A stretch of 64,000 nucleotides of DNA from a virus. The notes under the pieces were generated by a model. It saw only the letters and a program-made list of their open reading frames with translations. It searched no databases and was not told the origin of the DNA. Shown in pieces: positions 17,372 to 27,221 of this stretch. Every line of letters begins with the position of its first letter. Position 1 is the first letter of the stretch. A program made the position numbers and the translations under genes. The stretch is from positions 1 to 64,000 of IMG/VR virus record IMGVR_UViG_3300045581_000334, one strand, 5' to 3'.

Positions 17372-17946
17372 ACCTGCTCCAATGAAATATTAACGCTCCA
17401 ATATGGCTGAAGACCTCTTTTAACTAGAGTGCAATCAAAGCCACTAAATACTACTGTGTATATATTTGAAGTAGAAGAGTTTGCTGCAGAAGCTGATTCC
17501 GATGTATTTATTTTAATTCTAAATGATGTTCTTCCTGCTAAACTTTCATAGAATGTTTTTAGGTCTTCCGCTCCCCAAGCTCCGTCTACTGTTTCATTTC
17601 TAAACGAAGGCAACATTGACCATGAAGTAGAAAACGTTTTCTTGTCTGCAATAATAAATTCTCTTAATGTTCCATTAGCCATTCTTGTAGACTGCTTAAT
17701 TCTATTTGTGTTGATAGATAAATCTGATCTATTATGTTCTGTTACTCTTCTAAAAGCTAAAGAGTCTTTGTTAGATACAATTAAATTATTTGTAGTAGCT
17801 ACCGAAAGCGGATAAGTTTGGCCTCCAGCTGTTCTATCTGTAGTTTCTCCAGGATATCTAAAAGCAGTTGAGCCTGGAGTCATAAACAGTAGATCTTTTG
17901 CTTCTATGTATAGGACTGAGCCTTTGGGTAAATTTTCAAAACTCAT
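17368..17946 (-). CDS. distal tail (Dit-like) protein
   Basis: A 192-residue beta-rich protein located directly after the tape measure gene and before the hub, the conserved position of distal tail proteins. It has an Arg/Thr-rich loop region and a terminal module (SGFDCTLVKRGLQPYWSVNI) compatible with a hexameric tail-tip ring. It overlaps the neighbouring genes at both ends by four bases. The name rests mainly on gene order and size; sequence similarity was not tested. Confidence 0.6.
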   Translation of the reverse strand: MSFENLPKGSVLYIEAKDLLFMTPGSTAFRYPGETTDRTAGGQTYPLSVATTNNLIVSNKDSLAFRRVTEHNRSDLSINTNRIKQSTRMANGTLREFIIADKKTFSTSWSMLPSFRNETVDGAWGAEDLKTFYESLAGRTSFRIKINTSESASAANSSTSNIYTVVFSGFDCTLVKRGLQPYWSVNISLEQV

Positions 17947-20900
17947 CTAATCACCTTTACTTGTCCGCCCATTTGCAAGTTTCTATTTGACATAACTGCA
18001 AACACTTCTTGTGCTGCTGCTCTAGCTAATGCTCTTTCATCCATTCCTGGAGCTGCATTAATAACTATATCACCTATTGTAACATTACCCATTACTGGAC
18101 CAGCTGTAGAGTACATTCTTCTTGGAGGGTTTCCAACAGTTCCTCCAGTTGCAAATCTAGGTATTCTTATATCTGTGCCCTTAAACAATCTAAATCCGCC
18201 CATGTATTTAGAATTTTCAGTAAGCTGTGGATTTGCCTTTATAATACTATTTAAGGAAACTCCAAATCTTCTTGCTATTCCAAATAATGTATCTCCTCTG
18301 TTAACAGAGTAATCTTTTGCATTTCCTAAATTATGTGGTGCAAGGTCTCCGCCTACAAGGTCTGTTGTTTTTGTTGCATCTCTATAATCTGGTCTTCCGA
18401 AGCCTCTTGTATATATACCAGCTCTAGGATTATATGGACCAAACTTTCTATTCTTTACTGCAACCATTCCACCATTTGTTTGATTTGACCCTGAAGTATT
18501 TCCTTCAATTGTTCTTATAACATTCTTGCTAACTATTCTAGAAACTAAACCAACATGGTCTGTTATATTTTTATTTCTTCCAAAGTCAAAGAAGACTAAA
18601 TCTCCTGGTTCTGGGTTTTGATATAGCCTCTTCTTGGACCTAAATGATGAGTATCCAGCTGCAGTTCCAACAACATTTGGAATTTTAACTCCAGCTAAAC
18701 TTGATACCCAATTAATAAATCTACCGCACCATAAATCAAAGGATGGGAGTACTCTAGATATTGCTCCTGTAAGAGCTTTAGCCACTGGATTGTTGGTTGC
18801 CTTTTCTATATAACCAATCGCCTTTTCCGCAACTCTGAGCATTGCAGACTTAGTTCCCATTTCTAAATTCATTCCAAATATGTTTTTAAGATCTGGATCT
18901 CCGCCAGCTCCAAATCTACCTACAGGGCCACCATCTTTCATTCTGTTCAAGCGGTCTAAATTTTCATATCCTATGTTGGCAGCAGAGGCAGCATTTATTA
19001 CATACTCTCCATTAGAAAGCATTGCTGGAATAGAATCTGATGTTCCAGTTCCAGGCCCAGTAACTGCTCCACCTGTAACAAAATTCTTTACCCTATTTCC
19101 TTTAGTTTTTAATACATCGCTATAGTCATAAACTTCACCAGTACTTCCTACTGGAGAAGCATATCTTTTACCCTTATAGGTAAATACGTTATAAACTATT
19201 CCGTCTATCTGAACTCTTTCTGGTTGCTTTGCTCCTGCCTCAGCATCTCTAGCAGCAGTATAAAGATCCTTAGATTTAGAGACATCTTTAGGTTTTGTTC
19301 CTGGGTTTACGGTTACTCCAGCAGATCCTGTTGGGGTAAATTGATTGCCCATATCTCTGCTTATGGATTCTGCTAATTGCTTAATAGTCATTCCGCCAGT
19401 AATTAGCATAGCTTGAGATCTCACTAACTCTAAATCTCTATTAAGGACATCCCCCATTTTTCCTTTAGTAAATACACTATTTAACTGTAATCCTGTCTTG
19501 GGATCATATGTTGGGGCTTGAGATACTGAATCAAAATTTAAAGCTTTTCCAGAACTATCAAAGAATTTTCCAAAGGCTTTCTTGATATCTCCAGCAATAT
19601 CAAATCCCTTATTTCCTTTTGTTACAAGGCCAGCTGCCTGTATCTCTTTCACTAAAGACTTTAATTGATTGTCTGTTTGTCTTTGTGCATCTACTCTTAG
19701 TTTAGGATCTTGTATAAATTCATTTGTTTGTTTTTGTAAAAGTAAATCTTTATACTGCTGTGTGTAATTTTGTATTTTAGCCATAGCTTCTTGAGCTCTG
19801 GCAGCTTCAGCTTGAGCATCTTGAAACTCTCTTTGTCTCTTCTTTTCTTCTTCTGCATTTTTCTTTTGTTGATCTTGTAAAGCTTTTTCTTTTCTTGCAG
19901 CGTCTTCTTGAATAGCTAATCTGGCTTGCTCTGCCTGGTATGTCTTTTGTAATTGAATTAAATCTAAACGTGCTCTTTCAGCAGTTTGGAAGTCACCCTT
20001 TGCAATAGCTGCTTGGTAATCTAGTCTTGCTTTTTGTATTTGTAGTTCATACGATTCTCTTTTTTCAGTGGCATCCAAAGCTTTTAATTTCTCATTAGCA
20101 GCTTCTCTAATTAAATCTATTTGCTTCTGAAGTTTCTCATTTTGATCTTCCGCTGCACGTGAAGCTTTTTGTTGAGCTAAAGCGGCCTCTCTTCCAGTCT
20201 TGTCGATTATAGATTGTAAATTTGCCATGGTGAAACCAATTTGTTTAAAGGTTCCATCCATTCCAGAAAGTCCAAGACCAGTACTGAATGCTTTCTTTCC
20301 AGCATCAATTAGTTTATCTTGAGCTGCAGTAAATGCTGTTAAATATCTATCAAGCTGGGCTGCTGTTTCAGAACTTAATCCCTTAAGGTCTACCTGTACA
20401 CCTTTAACATAAAGTCTCCACTTTGCGTATATTCCTGCAATAGTATCGCTTTCTTTAGCAATTGCCTGTAACTCTGATGGAAGTTTTTGGAATGCTTCTA
20501 TTCCTACAACTTGATCAAATCCCTGAGACTTCATCTTATTTGTAACTTCAACTAAGGCTGCATATTCTCCCTTAACTTCTCCAAGAGCATTCTTTTGGCC
20601 AGATATTGAAACTATTGACTTATCAGTTAAATCAATTACAGAACTCATTCCTTCTATAACTTTAGTCTTATACTGATCTACTTCCTTATCTCCAGCCTTA
20701 ATTGTTTGAGATAAATGTTTTACAGAATACTCTGCAGCAGTTGATGAATCTTTTACGCCTGCAAATGCTGAATTAGTCATAACATTTATAGCCAATTTAG
20801 AATTCTTTGATGCTGCTATCATTCCCATTATTTTCTTATTAGCTTCTTCTACGCTCATTCCAGCAGCAATAAATTGAGCTTTTATATTTGTAGCAAGCTC

Positions 20901-23900
20901 TGCAATATTACTTGCATCTGCTCTATCAAATGATGCTACGAACTCTCCCATATTTTCTTTAGCAAATTCTTTAGCCTGCTTTAATTCTTCCATTGACATA
21001 TTTAATCCAGAAATTCCACCCATTCCAGATTTGCCAGCATTTTGTAATTGAGTTTGTCTTTGTGCAATAAGCTTCATCTTATCTGCAAGACTTGTATATT
21101 GAATTCCTGCTTGCTCCGCCGCCTTGGCATTCATTCCAAATCTTAACTGTGCGTCTCTATTCCATTCACGTGTTTTCTTTATAAGTACGCCTATGCCTAC
21201 AGTCAATGCTGCTATTCCAGCTAGCGGACCAACAAATAGAGCTTTAGATAAAACTACACGGAGTACATTCATAACTTTTGCAAACGTGCTTGCAGAAGCT
21301 CCAGCTGATGAGAATGCCCCCTTCATCGCAGTAAGGCCTTTTCCTACTCCAGCAATTCCTTTACCAATTCCAGGCAACATCATTGGCAACATAGATCCGC
21401 CCATCATGACTGCCATACCTAATCCAGTTTGTCCTTTTGCCATTAATGCAGAGCCTGCTGCCATTCCAGCCATGCTTGCGCCCATATTCATTCCCATGCT
21501 TGATCCACCACGAGACATTGCTCCCTGGAATCTTTGCATTGCAGTTGGCGCACTTAATCCAGCAGCTCTTGCTGCAGAAGCGGACATCTGCGTTACTTGT
21601 CCAGTCGCAGAATCTCTTAATGCAATCTGCTCTCTTCTAAATCCTAAAGGTCCAGCTTTTCTAGAAAGAACTTCCTTTCCGTCATGCATACGCATAGCAC
21701 CTTCAGCGCCAACCTGTGGTGTCCAAGCAGTTAAACCTACTGGACCTATATATCTCTGTAAAGCATTTTTAGCTCCAGCTAAATGTTGTAAATGAGGTGG
21801 AAGCATTGATGGGGTAGCATTATAATAACCCATCTTTGCAAAATCATGAGTAGCTCCCCTTCTTAGTATTTGTGTAGTTTTATCAATTCCTCTTTTTATA
21901 ATAGCTGCTGAATCTGTTACATAAGATTTCATTCCGTTAGCGAGTGACACTCCTGCAGATTTAAATGACGCCACTGCATATTTGGCAGAAGCAAGACTTT
22001 GAATTGCTAAAGCATTCATTCCTTGTTTAAGGGCTACGCCAGCATTTTTAATTACAGCCTGCATGTATTGTGCTTGCTGAGCGAGTCTACTTGTGAATGG
22101 GTCTATTAATGAGCTTCTAAGATATGCTCCTGGATTGTAAAAGCTTGTAGTTCCTTGTCTAACTGCTTCTCTACCAAGTCCTGTAGTTAATGCTTGTTGA
22201 CCATAAATTTGATGAGATGCAGCACGAGATCTTTCGGCTTCCATTTCTCTAATTCGTTTTTGACGTTGCTCGGCTTCCCATTTTGCTCTTGCTGCAGGAT
22301 TTCCTGGTCTACCGTAATTGCTTCTTCCAGAAACAATTCTGCCTCCTCCAATTAATCCTCCACGATTAAATGCTGGGTTTGCATGAATTGGTTGATACTT
22401 ACTCCAATTAACATTCATTCCATCTTCAAGTCTTGAAAGCATTGAAATATATGGAGCTCTGTCTGACTCTGGTAAAGAATTTATAAATGCTCTAAGTTTC
22501 GGATGCATTGCTTTCATTGCAGCCTTCATCTTGGCCCCATATTGTCTTGGAGACATTCCTGCTGCAACTGGAGCTGTATTATATGCAAAATCTTTTCTAG
22601 CGCCACCACGAACAGCAAGTAGGTTTATCATTGCCTGCTTTTCCATTGAATTCATTGATGCTGCGTATTCTGTATTCATGGAGGCTCTTGGGAAAACCCC
22701 TGCAGGACCAACGTCAGCTAATACATTTCCAAAAACATTAGACTTTGACAAATCTTTATTTCCAAGCAAGAGGGATGCTATTGTTTGTCTAATCATTTGA
22801 TCTTCTGTAAACTTAGTTCCACCTGCTGCAAATTTTGGATCAAATGGTGACTCCAATCCCAGCAACTTACTCTTTCCGCTTGGGTCATAAGGATTTTTTA
22901 CAGCTCTTACAGTTTGAACTGGAGAGTCTAATCCAAAAACTTCTCTTGACATTCTTGTTCCATACATTTCAGATTTAGCAGTTATTGCATTTGGAACACC
23001 TTTTAAGAAAACTAATTCTCCATTTTCGTTTCTATAAACTCCAGAAACTCCAGGAATAGGATAGCTCTTTCCAGAACTTGGTGCAATTTGATGACTATAT
23101 GGAGTTACAGGAAGGTTAGAGAATTCTCCTAAAGATTTCTTTGAGCTAAGTTGTTTTGATGTGTTTAATACTCTAAGTATTTTTTCTGGAGTTAAAAGAG
23201 GAACAATGTTTCCATAGTTACGTCTTCCACCTGATATTGATCCTCCAGGAATACTACCTCCAGAATTAAATGATGCAAGAACTGGGGTCATAATAGGAGG
23301 TCTTCCTCTTGGAACCATAACCCAACGTTTTCTTTCAGTTATTGCTTGCAACAACATCTTCAAAGACTGCTTCTGTTGTGGTGTCGCCCTAGATGGCAAT
23401 GCCTTTCCAGCTTTTATGTCGGCAAGTTCTTTTTTACTTGGGAATCTATTTCCTGGATCAGACAATGCCACAGCAATGTCATCTAACGTTGTCATTCTAG
23501 ACATTCCAGCTTTCTTAATCATATCTGATAATGATTCCTCAGCGTCTGCCTTTGTTAAGTGTAAAACATCTCCTCTTAGTTTAATTTGATCTAGTCTATT
23601 CATCAAAGAGTTTAGTTCTGAATCAATTACCGCAGCGACTCCCATGTGTCCACGTGTGGCATGCCCTACTTGATCATGTCTCAATAAGTGGCCTCTTGCT
23701 ACACCGACCTTTGTTCCTTGATCATCTCTCATCTCTAAATATGGAACTCCGCCTGTATTTAAAACTTTTGGATCAAATAATTTCATTTGTTTCAATTCAT
23801 TTGAGACATTTGCAAATCTTGGATCATCAGCCATAAATTTCTGCAACATAAATATATGTTTATTTAAAGCTGAACTGCTTGGAGTTCTTGTTGCAGCTCT

Positions 23901-26900
23901 ATTTGGATGACTTAATTTAGGATATTTCTTTTCTAAGTCCTTTACCTGATTAATTCTATGTTTAATAAATGAATCTAGATTACCTCCAGATTTTGTTTTA
24001 GCAGCATTAAAATTATCAAATGCGACTTTTACAGCCTGGTCTTTTGGCATTCCAGCATATTCCATTAATTCTGCAGCATCCAACATAACCATTCTCATTC
24101 TTACAGAATCTTCATAGAAAGGATTTTTTATAAATTTAACTAACTGGCCTAATTGTTTTCTATAGTAAGCAGGAGTTTCTCTATACTTTTCTCCATAGTT
24201 ACCTTTGTTTTTCATTACTTGCCCGCCAAAATTATATCCGTTATTAGCAGCTTCTAGTGCATCATATAACCCTGGAATTCTATTTATCTTTGGGCCAAAG
24301 ACAACTTCTCCTGGAGTAAGAGCTGCTGTTATTTCTCCGCCACCCTCGAATGTATATGGAGCCATAGCAATCAAATCCTTATTTTGTGGATCTAACGAAG
24401 CTCCTTGATTTAGTACATAACCTCCCAATGGGACTGTTCCAAGCCTATCGTCATAATTTATTGAAGTTGATCCAGATACAGTTGTCTTGTTTGGTCCAAA
24501 AGATTCTACCATTCCACCATCATTAAATTTAGGAAGTCTTGTTGTCTGTATGCTGTATGGCGCACCAAATGTTCTTACTCCACGGAGTCTACCAAACTCC
24601 TCCATGACAGCCCTGTTGCCTTCTTTTTTGTATAGATCTCTTAATGTGAATTGTCCATTAGCATCAACTACTGGCTGATTCATCAATGGGGCTTTTGTAA
24701 AATCAATTGTTCTTCCACGAGCTGCGGCAAATGCTCCTAGCTCAGATCTCATTGCAGATTCTAATTGTGCATTTATAGCTATGATTTCTGCTTTAGCTTG
24801 ATCAACAGTCATTTTGCCAGCACGTAATTGTGATACTATTGCTGCAGATTGTGTCGCAGCATTATCTGCTAATCTAGTCGTAATTGGCAGAATATCATCA
24901 AAAGTATCTAGTAGTTCGCTGCTTACTGTACCGCCTAAAGCTATAGTCTTTTTTAATGTTGCCACTTCTGCTTCTGTTTGCATAGCAAGTGTAGATAGTA
25001 GTGCATGATATCTTGCAGCTTCTCCTGAAACTATTCCTGTAGAAACTCCCTTTACTTCTGTTAATCCTGGAATTCCTGGAAGTCTTTCATGCATGTATAT
25101 CTGTGGAGTTCTTCCAATCTTTTGATTAACAGGAATTGCTCCTGGAACTCCGCCTAAAAATGTAGCTGGATTATTTGGGTCTCTTGGATTAATATGAGAC
25201 ATTGCTCTTGTATTTAAATCTCCAGAATATGGATCGTTTGGATCAACAACTCTTCTTCCTCCAGCCATTACTGTTGAGCCAGCTACCGTGGTAACTGCTG
25301 GATTTACTGGGATTGTACCTTTAGCCATTGCTGACTGTAGGTTCATGTAATCTCCAACTAGTTTAGTTAAAGCTCCGTGTAAAACTTCTGCAGCTTTTGC
25401 ATCTGAATAAAAAGCTTTTTCCACCATTTGAGAAGCTTTTTCTGCAGCAATTATTTCTGGAGTAAGCATCTTCCATCCCTTTGATCCTTGGAAGAGTGCT
25501 TTTAATGAAACTATACCCTTAGTTACATAACCAAAGAAGTTAGCTAGCACACCAGTTAACATAATTATTGGACCAATAACTGCCGTAAATCCTCCTAGGT
25601 ATGTGACTGCTTTTTTAATTGGTTCTGGTAAATTAGTAAAGAAATCTAATACTTTAGTAAATGCATTTATAAACTTTGTTGCGACACCTAAGAAGTCTTC
25701 TCCAACATCTGCAAGGCTAGCTCTTAATCCTTCAATAGCTCTTTTATATTTACCAGAAGCAGATTCAGTTACTAATGTTAATTCTCGACCAGCTATTTCT
25801 GCAAGTTGCGATGCGCTTGCATTCATTAAATTCATTACCTGTAATGTTTGGCTACCTTCTTTGCCCAAGTTATTAAACAGTGCAGCCATTCTAGCAAATT
25901 GGAATTTACCAAACATTTGCTCAAGTGCTCTTGCTTTACTTAATGGATCTAATCCGTCTAAAGCTTTTTGTAAACCTACTATCATTCCAGTTGTATTGCC
26001 AACGTTTTGCTGAACTAATCCCATTATGTCTATGCCGAATTCTGACATAACTCCAACTGTTTGCTTTGTCGGATTAATCATGGAGGCAAGACCAGACTTT
26101 AGTGCGTTAGCTGCCTCTGAGGCATTAACTCCACCTTCACGCATGGCAGTCAAATATAATGCTAAATCTTGTACGTCACCGCCTAATTGTTTTACAACGG
26201 TACCAGCTTTTGGAATTGCTTCAACAAGGTCGTTTAGTGTTGTGGATGTCTGGTTTTCTACAGCGTTTAAAAAGTTAATTGATTCAGTTAATTCTTGAGT
26301 GTTTGATTTGAAAGCTGTTTGAATTGCTAATGTAGCCTTCATTGCTTCTGCTCTATCTACTTCACCAAGAACTGCTAGCCTTGTTGTTTCTTTTAATGAA
26401 GATAGTAGCTGTTCGCCTTGCTGCCCAGTTGCTGCAATATCAGCGGCTAATCCAATTGTTTCTTTAAAATTAACTCCCATTGCATTAGACAATTCTTTAG
26501 ATGTATCAACAACATCTTGTCTAATTTTTTTCAAGTCTGCAGAAGCTGTTCCAGCAATATCTCCATAAACCTTAACTAGTCTTGTTAGTTCTTGATCTGC
26601 TTCTCTAAAAGCTCTAGCAGCTTGCGATCCAAACATTGCTAATGGTACTGTTAAACCTACTGTTAACTGACGACCAGCCCATTGAGTATTTTTACCCCAA
26701 TTAATTAAAGATGTGGCACCTTCAGATAATGCACGATTCATTATCTGTAATTCCATTCTGGCCAACTGGGTTCCATTTCTTACGGAATCTAGTCCTCTTG
26801 GAATCATTACATTGTATTGCATTAAACCTTGAGCGTTTCTACCCAGAGGCTGCATTACTGCATTTTGTAACATTACCTGCTCTTGAGCAAGTTCTCTAAT

Positions 26901-27221
26901 TAATCCTTTAGATGTTTTTACATGTGTTCTAAATGTTGAAAAATAATCTCTTAATTTTAATCTACCTGCATCGAGGTTTTTACCAAATTTATCTACATCG
27001 GATTGTAAATTTACAAAGTGGCTTGAATACATTCCGCTTCCGACAAGCGTATCTCTGAACATATTGTTAGCAATTTTTGTTGCGGAAGCAATTGATTTGT
27101 TAGATGTTACTAGTTCTCTTTGAAGTTGTTGTAGACTAGCCGTAGCCCTGTGTACTTCGGACACAAGGCTAGACAAGTCAGCTTTGGCGACTATACTCGT
27201 TACAATTTGTTCGTCTGCCAC
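17943..27221 (-). CDS. tape measure protein with CHAP-like peptidase, LysM and a possible kinase-like insert
   Basis: A 3092-residue protein starting at GTG behind AAGGAG. Residues about 130-560 match the core of phage tape measures, ending in a hydrophobic segment (about 541-575). Further hydrophobic stretches occur near 1905-2014, and a long charged coiled coil at about 2336-2488. Low-complexity GG linkers (FNDGG, FNSGG, FNRGG) separate inserted modules. One insert (about 1391-1615) looks like a HipA-type kinase. A typical GPGTGTSDSIPAMLSNGEYV motif precedes a CHAP/NlpC-like cell-wall peptidase (about 2780-2950; catalytic Cys in DLWCGRF, His in ITDHVGLV) and a LysM (about 2966-3015). It sets tail length and probably opens peptidoglycan during DNA injection. 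Confidence 0.92.
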   Translation of the reverse strand: MADEQIVTSIVAKADLSSLVSEVHRATASLQQLQRELVTSNKSIASATKIANNMFRDTLVGSGMYSSHFVNLQSDVDKFGKNLDAGRLKLRDYFSTFRTHVKTSKGLIRELAQEQVMLQNAVMQPLGRNAQGLMQYNVMIPRGLDSVRNGTQLARMELQIMNRALSEGATSLINWGKNTQWAGRQLTVGLTVPLAMFGSQAARAFREADQELTRLVKVYGDIAGTASADLKKIRQDVVDTSKELSNAMGVNFKETIGLAADIAATGQQGEQLLSSLKETTRLAVLGEVDRAEAMKATLAIQTAFKSNTQELTESINFLNAVENQTSTTLNDLVEAIPKAGTVVKQLGGDVQDLALYLTAMREGGVNASEAANALKSGLASMINPTKQTVGVMSEFGIDIMGLVQQNVGNTTGMIVGLQKALDGLDPLSKARALEQMFGKFQFARMAALFNNLGKEGSQTLQVMNLMNASASQLAEIAGRELTLVTESASGKYKRAIEGLRASLADVGEDFLGVATKFINAFTKVLDFFTNLPEPIKKAVTYLGGFTAVIGPIIMLTGVLANFFGYVTKGIVSLKALFQGSKGWKMLTPEIIAAEKASQMVEKAFYSDAKAAEVLHGALTKLVGDYMNLQSAMAKGTIPVNPAVTTVAGSTVMAGGRRVVDPNDPYSGDLNTRAMSHINPRDPNNPATFLGGVPGAIPVNQKIGRTPQIYMHERLPGIPGLTEVKGVSTGIVSGEAARYHALLSTLAMQTEAEVATLKKTIALGGTVSSELLDTFDDILPITTRLADNAATQSAAIVSQLRAGKMTVDQAKAEIIAINAQLESAMRSELGAFAAARGRTIDFTKAPLMNQPVVDANGQFTLRDLYKKEGNRAVMEEFGRLRGVRTFGAPYSIQTTRLPKFNDGGMVESFGPNKTTVSGSTSINYDDRLGTVPLGGYVLNQGASLDPQNKDLIAMAPYTFEGGGEITAALTPGEVVFGPKINRIPGLYDALEAANNGYNFGGQVMKNKGNYGEKYRETPAYYRKQLGQLVKFIKNPFYEDSVRMRMVMLDAAELMEYAGMPKDQAVKVAFDNFNAAKTKSGGNLDSFIKHRINQVKDLEKKYPKLSHPNRAATRTPSSSALNKHIFMLQKFMADDPRFANVSNELKQMKLFDPKVLNTGGVPYLEMRDDQGTKVGVARGHLLRHDQVGHATRGHMGVAAVIDSELNSLMNRLDQIKLRGDVLHLTKADAEESLSDMIKKAGMSRMTTLDDIAVALSDPGNRFPSKKELADIKAGKALPSRATPQQKQSLKMLLQAITERKRWVMVPRGRPPIMTPVLASFNSGGSIPGGSISGGRRNYGNIVPLLTPEKILRVLNTSKQLSSKKSLGEFSNLPVTPYSHQIAPSSGKSYPIPGVSGVYRNENGELVFLKGVPNAITAKSEMYGTRMSREVFGLDSPVQTVRAVKNPYDPSGKSKLLGLESPFDPKFAAGGTKFTEDQMIRQTIASLLLGNKDLSKSNVFGNVLADVGPAGVFPRASMNTEYAASMNSMEKQAMINLLAVRGGARKDFAYNTAPVAAGMSPRQYGAKMKAAMKAMHPKLRAFINSLPESDRAPYISMLSRLEDGMNVNWSKYQPIHANPAFNRGGLIGGGRIVSGRSNYGRPGNPAARAKWEAEQRQKRIREMEAERSRAASHQIYGQQALTTGLGREAVRQGTTSFYNPGAYLRSSLIDPFTSRLAQQAQYMQAVIKNAGVALKQGMNALAIQSLASAKYAVASFKSAGVSLANGMKSYVTDSAAIIKRGIDKTTQILRRGATHDFAKMGYYNATPSMLPPHLQHLAGAKNALQRYIGPVGLTAWTPQVGAEGAMRMHDGKEVLSRKAGPLGFRREQIALRDSATGQVTQMSASAARAAGLSAPTAMQRFQGAMSRGGSSMGMNMGASMAGMAAGSALMAKGQTGLGMAVMMGGSMLPMMLPGIGKGIAGVGKGLTAMKGAFSSAGASASTFAKVMNVLRVVLSKALFVGPLAGIAALTVGIGVLIKKTREWNRDAQLRFGMNAKAAEQAGIQYTSLADKMKLIAQRQTQLQNAGKSGMGGISGLNMSMEELKQAKEFAKENMGEFVASFDRADASNIAELATNIKAQFIAAGMSVEEANKKIMGMIAASKNSKLAINVMTNSAFAGVKDSSTAAEYSVKHLSQTIKAGDKEVDQYKTKVIEGMSSVIDLTDKSIVSISGQKNALGEVKGEYAALVEVTNKMKSQGFDQVVGIEAFQKLPSELQAIAKESDTIAGIYAKWRLYVKGVQVDLKGLSSETAAQLDRYLTAFTAAQDKLIDAGKKAFSTGLGLSGMDGTFKQIGFTMANLQSIIDKTGREAALAQQKASRAAEDQNEKLQKQIDLIREAANEKLKALDATEKRESYELQIQKARLDYQAAIAKGDFQTAERARLDLIQLQKTYQAEQARLAIQEDAARKEKALQDQQKKNAEEEKKRQREFQDAQAEAARAQEAMAKIQNYTQQYKDLLLQKQTNEFIQDPKLRVDAQRQTDNQLKSLVKEIQAAGLVTKGNKGFDIAGDIKKAFGKFFDSSGKALNFDSVSQAPTYDPKTGLQLNSVFTKGKMGDVLNRDLELVRSQAMLITGGMTIKQLAESISRDMGNQFTPTGSAGVTVNPGTKPKDVSKSKDLYTAARDAEAGAKQPERVQIDGIVYNVFTYKGKRYASPVGSTGEVYDYSDVLKTKGNRVKNFVTGGAVTGPGTGTSDSIPAMLSNGEYVINAASAANIGYENLDRLNRMKDGGPVGRFGAGGDPDLKNIFGMNLEMGTKSAMLRVAEKAIGYIEKATNNPVAKALTGAISRVLPSFDLWCGRFINWVSSLAGVKIPNVVGTAAGYSSFRSKKRLYQNPEPGDLVFFDFGRNKNITDHVGLVSRIVSKNVIRTIEGNTSGSNQTNGGMVAVKNRKFGPYNPRAGIYTRGFGRPDYRDATKTTDLVGGDLAPHNLGNAKDYSVNRGDTLFGIARRFGVSLNSIIKANPQLTENSKYMGGFRLFKGTDIRIPRFATGGTVGNPPRRMYSTAGPVMGNVTIGDIVINAAPGMDERALARAAAQEVFAVMSNRNLQMGGQVKVIR

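Follow-up and report, generated by a model that had tools for sequence, protein, structure and literature searches.

Enzymes known in phage tape measure proteins (TMPs) act on the cell wall, and the TMP of TM4 reportedly carries a peptidoglycan hydrolase. TMP relatives have been turned into effectors of contractile injection systems, and the accessible text of that report contains the word "kinase" 0 times (PMC13277306); TM4, Sle1 and the TMP-derived effectors have wall or membrane targets and none of them is a kinase. For the TMP of phage lambda the accessible part of the source states that it reaches the inner membrane during injection and contacts host proteins there, so that entry into the cell envelope is established (PMC13190303). 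Kinases occur in the polyvalent proteins of phages and conjugative elements, which according to the accessible text combine several enzyme domains (kinases, GNATs) in one long polypeptide and are thought to enter the cell with the DNA (PMC5512222); the term "tape measure" is absent from this publication. In MuF polymorphic toxins an effector domain is fused to a virion protein and injection has been proposed, and the accessible text describes a head protein as carrier and a C-terminal toxin and mentions no kinase (PMC5576092). Related arrangements are already known, namely kinases in polyvalent proteins, wall enzymes in TMPs and phage head proteins with a kinase-like domain. A kinase-fold module within a TMP had no prior description in the literature found by our search (subscription papers and preprints lay outside it), and none is described in the accessible parts of PMC8876498, PMC7824862, PMC9341999, PMC13277306, PMC13190303, PMC5512222 and PMC5576092.

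The stretch of DNA analyzed here (the window, 64,000 bases) is part of a virus record of 76,694 bases. Long ORFs in window 1-64000 are almost all located on the minus strand, the head-to-tail structural block shows a distant likeness to Streptomyces phages, and no tRNA genes were found in this range. One very long ORF within the tail gene block encodes a siphophage TMP, as indicated by a PHROG tape measure match (3.5e-114) and the conserved PhageMin_Tail core, and is surrounded by genes for the portal, the head protease, the major head protein and minor tail proteins. The carrier is a TMP and not a MuF (SPP1 gp7) protein. Its main features are:

17943..27221, minus strand: tape measure protein gene (3,092 aa, GTG start; ORF, Pfam and PHROG)
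25908..26507, minus strand: conserved TMP core PhageMin_Tail, residues 239-438 (Pfam, 7.1e-28)
18498..18731, minus strand: CHAP peptidoglycan hydrolase domain, residues 2831-2908 (Pfam, 1.2e-6, 29.4 bits, cutoff 26)
18219..18311, minus strand: LysM wall-binding domain, residues 2971-3001 (Pfam LysM, 3.4e-7)

With CHAP and LysM the window TMP resembles the TMPs that carry peptidoglycan hydrolases and the TMP-derived effectors (TM4, Sle1), in which an enzyme or effector is also part of the TMP. Pfam detected no protease domain in the protein, and CHAP is of the wall amidase/peptidase type. Streptomyces phages are the closest isolates by TMP (36-38%) and by head protease (about 50%), which makes a relative of the actinomycetes the probable host.

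A preliminary description of this DNA, made from a single sequence, had proposed that a kinase-like segment bounded by Gly-rich linkers is inserted in the TMP. The peptides on which it relied were found in frame where it had placed them in the ORF: GVYRNENGELVFLKGVPN corresponds to residues 1394-1411, AKSEMYGTRMSREVFGL to residues 1415-1431 and LLGNKDLSKSNVFG to residues 1485-1498, while FNSGG begins at residue 1318 and FNRGG covers residues 1618-1622. The proposed interval 22370-23080 equals residues 1381-1617 within a base, but the folded unit extends some 40 residues further toward the N-terminus, to about residue 1339. The region is organized as follows, with the conservation counts referring to 109 distinct segments of the family:

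24189..24236, minus strand: Gly-rich linker 1, residues 996-1011 (YNFGG..NYG)
23274..24206, minus strand: first bay module, residues about 1006-1316, enzyme or spacer; partly replaced in other phages
23208..23270, minus strand: Gly-rich linker 2, residues 1318-1338 (FNSGG..NYG)
22371..23207, minus strand: kinase-fold module, residues 1339-1617, core about 1368-1612 (AlphaFold2, VIA-align, conserved catalytic set)
22308..22370, minus strand: Gly-rich linker 3, residues 1618-1638 (FNRGG..NYG)
23001..23003, minus strand: K1407, predicted ATP-binding Lys (kept in 109/109)
22968..22970, minus strand: E1418, predicted helix-C Glu (kept in 107/109)
22851..22853, minus strand: E1457, hinge-position Glu ending the last N-lobe strand (kept in 108/109)
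22752..22754, minus strand: D1490, predicted catalytic Asp of the GN-x-D-x4-N loop (kept in 109/109)
22737..22739, minus strand: N1495, predicted metal-binding Asn (kept in 109/109)
22713..22715, minus strand: D1503, predicted DFG-like metal-binding Asp (DVG), past a two-turn mini hairpin (kept in 109/109)

The linker pattern [FY]N.GG.{1,18}YG, which was composed after the sequence had been seen, occurs three times in the window TMP (residues 996, 1318 and 1618), compared with 0.0015 expected from shuffled copies. In more divergent TMPs a PGxxGAGDxxPAxLxPGEAVIPA repeat flanks the bay modules instead of these F/Y-N-x-G-G...Y-G linkers. The first bay module at 23274-24206 has no Pfam match; it shows a conserved D-R-A/G-H...G...N pattern that is faintly reminiscent of DRGH nucleases and is swapped or shortened in relatives.

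Structure prediction with AlphaFold2 for residues 1339-1617 together with 97 family members yielded one folded domain (pLDDT 94.9, pTM 0.91), and a first model built from 21 sequences had reached a pLDDT of 76.5 and a pTM of 0.76. The model has the two-lobed fold of the kinase-like superfamily, and strands at segment positions 158-159 and 162-163 form a minimal hairpin within the 8-residue stretch from N1495 to D1503. In the VIA-align comparison of the 97-sequence model the top match is CotH (5jda; Z 11.7, rmsd 4.1, 214 aligned residues), and the list includes CtkA (3akk; Z 10.5, rmsd 4.3, 203 aligned), PI4KIIbeta (4wtv; Z 9.5, rmsd 4.4, 198 aligned), Legionella LepB (Z 9.3), the Fam20/Golgi casein kinase (4kqb; Z 9.1, rmsd 4.2, 206 aligned), HipT (7ab4; Z 8.7, rmsd 5.2, 197 aligned) and VPS34 (Z 8.7), with HipA (4pu4, Z 8.7; 3hzi, 8.5) level with PI3-kinases. 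All 50 matches listed belong to the kinase-like superfamily or to kinase-fold effectors, although a family missing among these 50 is not thereby excluded. The model from 21 sequences retrieved the same group (CtkA Z 10.0, HipA 9.1). A Foldseek search against the PDB gave no match with E < 0.001 for either model; the best E value was 4.7e-3 for the 97-sequence model, with typical protein kinases mixed into the list, and 1.5e-3 (CtkA) for the 21-sequence model. Judged by the predicted structure, it is largely right to regard residues 1339-1617 as an intact atypical-kinase domain with a fold closest to CotH, CtkA, PI4KII, Fam20 and HipA. A model without a kinase fold had been named beforehand as the result that would speak against the idea, and the opposite was obtained.

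The likeness to HipA, FAM20 and PI-kinases that had been suggested at the beginning applies to the fold and does not extend to membership in one of these sequence families. The segment has no Pfam, PHROG or PDB sequence match, including the solved-structure chains of CotH, CtkA and Fam20, and three PDB sequence matches (best E 0.22) were dismissed as chance. HipA_C (PF07804) was detected neither in the segment by Pfam nor in the genome record at E 10, and the PI3/PI4 kinase profile (PF00454) matched none of 21 members. At the sequence level the module is a new family in the kinase-like superfamily and not HipA itself. It appears to share with CotH, CtkA, PI4KII, Fam20 and HipA/HipT the overall fold, with 197-214 residues aligned, and, going by the usual motif spacing of these enzymes, the succession Lys, Glu, hinge Glu, Asp-x4-Asn, Asp. 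Unlike all of them, the TMP module has the 8-residue hairpin between Asn and the second Asp, is part of a virion tail protein and has no detectable sequence similarity to them.

The catalytic positions are strongly conserved in the family. The Lys, Glu, Asp and Asn had been picked from one sequence before any alignment existed, and they are kept in 109, 107, 109 and 109 of the 109 segments; D1503, which the preliminary description did not contain, is invariant as well and completes a set of ATP-binding Lys, helix-C Glu, catalytic Asp, Asn five residues later and metal-binding Asp, all of these being predicted roles. We assigned the roles by position in the fold and by known enzyme motifs. Because short conserved kinase peptides, one of which includes D1490 (47/109 lack that peptide), had led to most of the 109 sequences, we used copies ascertained through the TMP as an independent check: among 15 copies (12 distinct) retrieved with the TMP N-terminus and without use of the kinase, all six positions are kept in 15/15. 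In comparison with seven relatives the dN/dS is 0.08-0.30 for the kinase, 0.05-0.16 for the TMP N-terminus and 0.19-0.55 for the region after the bay, and these values are rough because dS is near or above 1. Between residue 600 and the end of the protein, 33 of the 37 columns that are invariant in 18 diverse TMPs, every one of them chosen for carrying the module, are inside the kinase.

That a helical linker merely resembles a kinase by chance would fit the Foldseek E values above 0.001 in the PDB and the lack of an HMM family match, but the high-confidence model, the 50/50 kinase-fold matches and the invariant catalytic set make it scarcely credible. Proteins with a kinase fold include pseudokinases, AMPylases and glutamylases, and kinase folds with non-kinase chemistry exist. 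SidJ among the Foldseek matches of the 21-sequence model and the LepB match would be in line with AMPylation as in SelO or glutamylation as in SidJ, reached by the same delivery route; we consider such a chemistry unlikely, as no member of the standard Lys-Glu-Asp-Asn-Asp set is missing, the set is invariant and no feature specific to SelO or SidJ was noticed. The module could also be a pseudoenzyme or a structural bead, i.e., a folded spacer or binding module with a role in setting the length of the tail or in docking to a host protein. In fact, the eight untruncated ORFs with the module are long (2,858-3,891 aa) compared with 33 ORFs without it (1,022-3,220 aa, most near 2,100-2,400 aa), but a spacer needs no catalytic residues and these residues lie in the part that is most conserved between residue 600 and the end, which argues against a mere bead and leaves it improbable. 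An enzyme with kinase chemistry remains our preferred reading of the module.

TMP residues 160-600 as query returned at least 600 relatives, of which we examined the best 80. Of these near TMPs, 15 carry the kinase, 36 do not and 29 are too short to tell; a six-frame check of the other 65 confirmed that the kinase is absent as far as the sequence reaches. Three of the 36 (L217, L231 and L234) run off the contig end with >1,200 aa beyond the N-terminal match, and in another one (L232) the ORF stops at 1,022 aa despite a well-conserved N-terminus and no kinase is present in any frame. In a tree of 52 TMP N-termini the distribution of the kinase needs 3 gains or losses compared with a shuffled mean of 13.6; within this tree L180 lacks the kinase inside a kinase clade and L209 carries it among TMPs without. 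The window TMP is colinear with kinase-less TMPs up to roughly residue 910-1,075, and colinearity resumes at roughly residue 1,900-1,980; the part between is variable. The initial idea of a bounded cargo module gains support from the optional nature of the segment and from its position in a variable bay flanked by Gly-rich linkers.

The same bay can hold a second enzyme. A HAD phosphatase was found in the kinase bay of 11 ORFs on 10 contigs (Pfam Acid_phosphat_B PF03767, up to 66.1 bits, cutoff 27), with the motifs DxDxT, TAR and EEFYDD in L094, L106, L107, L129, L147, L148, L150, L151, L076/L084 and L083. This co-occurrence comes from a set preselected for the kinase, and the 80 loci selected by TMP contained no HAD motif. 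One TMP with both enzymes (L107:3410-6562) has a weak GNAT acetyltransferase match elsewhere (E 0.003, 18.3 bits, cutoff 20.7). In having several kinds of enzyme in one polypeptide, a kinase fold and CHAP in the window TMP and additionally HAD in the 10 contigs, these proteins agree with polyvalent proteins; however, the kinases in the accessible description of polyvalent proteins are a distinct group that has lost the C-terminal subdomain, whereas the model of the TMP kinase retains a helical C-lobe (PMC5512222).

The family is large and almost confined to TMPs. Residues 1339-1617 as query retrieved 38 candidate stretches from viral contigs, all of them relatives, and alignment-based searches of viral contigs gave 76/93, 87/102 and then 281/307 relatives among the candidate stretches; the family thus comprises at least 281 viral stretches, and the best 80 of the 281 were kept from the last search. 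Of 163 kinase ORFs, window included, 158 have a PhageMin-like N-terminus. The remaining five are L101 and L156, both cut off by a contig start, L001, which is the window excerpt, and two pieces of L038, a TMP copy frameshifted within the kinase (175- and 101-aa pieces) by either sequencing error or decay. Loci outnumber contigs, as some contigs are represented twice (e.g., L076 and L084). There are two TMP backgrounds, and nearly all examined relatives are inside a TMP: in window-type TMPs the module starts near residue 1,330, and in a second, more divergent type it starts near residue 800 and has no neighboring module. The idea of a separate kinase translated from a start codon inside the TMP gene was dismissed on the basis of the alignment, in which the first residue of the module can be Ile, Leu or Met.

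The window segment and L076 had no tblastn match in 50,697 phage records, and the single match of L081 in these records (E 0.7) was taken as chance. No relative was among the 12 and 101 pattern matches that two scans of 84,980 prokaryote genomes yielded, and a prophage-borne host gene was rejected on this basis, with the reservation that short peptide patterns can miss divergent copies; plasmids, with 0 relatives, were likewise set aside. At the level of structure, Foldseek against the BFVD viral library gave 8 matches below 0.001 out of 369 (E 9.1e-6 to 8.5e-4), among them A0A6J5S481, A0A6J5MJB0, A0A6J5PWC9, Onyinye A0A6B9L6W7, HHTV-1 R4T6E8 and HSTV-2 L7TJZ0. These include a portal fusion, a protein named PI3/4-kinase and phage ADP-ribosyltransferase proteins, and unlike the window carrier they are not TMPs by name or gene position. 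HSTV2_16, a hypothetical protein of a haloarchaeal virus (L242:10647-12116), matches Pfam PI3_PI4_kinase at 1.5e-5 with 25.5 bits, just below the cutoff of 27.1. Its GNDDRHYGN loop resembles the GNKDLSKSN of the TMP kinase by eye, but its gene is located between head and tail genes and the TMP of HSTV-2 is a separate gene; a profile comparison of the TMP kinase with HSTV2_16 was not significant (probability 1.6).

Taken as a whole, we favor, with fair but not strong confidence, that the atypical-kinase domain is an optional TMP cargo, which would bind Mg-ATP, leave with the TMP at DNA ejection and phosphorylate a host target. A folded domain of 280 aa is hard to fit into the lumen of a siphophage tail, so storage would require an unfolded or compacted state, and the module may travel in the tail folded down or unfolded. 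The C-terminus of a TMP leaves the tail first. At DNA ejection the module would exit with the remaining TMP, and the CHAP/LysM region at the C-terminus would meanwhile open the wall. As the module lies between two hydrophobic segments of the TMP (about 538-556 and 1989-2007), it could end up on either membrane face. Once it has reached the membrane or the cytoplasm, it could transfer phosphate to a host target, or to a nucleic-acid or lipid substrate, and thereby help the phage through the first minutes of infection, for instance through inhibition of a defence or of a factor for translation or entry. Its likeliest role seems to be that of an early effector acting on a host target by phosphorylation.

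The kinase might, on the other hand, act within the cell that produces the phage or in the virion under assembly, where it would phosphorylate tail, chaperone or host proteins and be a passenger of the tail only. The TMP is a late structural protein encoded in the head-tail gene block, and the enzyme is therefore present in the producing cell anyway. For such a role, however, a separate gene would suffice, whereas the module is part of a TMP in almost all relatives and in both TMP backgrounds, which suggests that packaging into the tail is needed; in 10 contigs a HAD phosphatase shares the bay. Hence we rate a function restricted to the producing cell as rather unlikely, although not as far-fetched as a different chemistry or a bead.

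Delivery of the module at DNA ejection may be part of a broader scheme, which we put forward tentatively and with less assurance than the cargo role itself: in a large group of uncultured phages with probable Actinomycetota hosts, the TMPs could have a Gly-linked bay for exchangeable enzymes (the new atypical-kinase family, HAD phosphatases and possibly others). After threading through the tail, these enzymes would enter the cell before the genome or together with it and rewire host phosphorylation before phage expression.

The TMP kinase is a new kinase family of at least 281 viral stretches, for which no relative was found in cultured phages or sequenced prokaryotes. If a conserved TMP kinase proves true, the first protein out of a siphophage tail can be a signaling effector and the ruler of the tail would also serve as a modular delivery vehicle. 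This makes it testable which roles very long TMPs have in the cell besides wall hydrolysis and pore formation. Furthermore, the module hints at a natural way of carrying folded enzymes through phage tails, and an enzyme that modifies proteins may reach the bacterium alongside the DNA of these phages.
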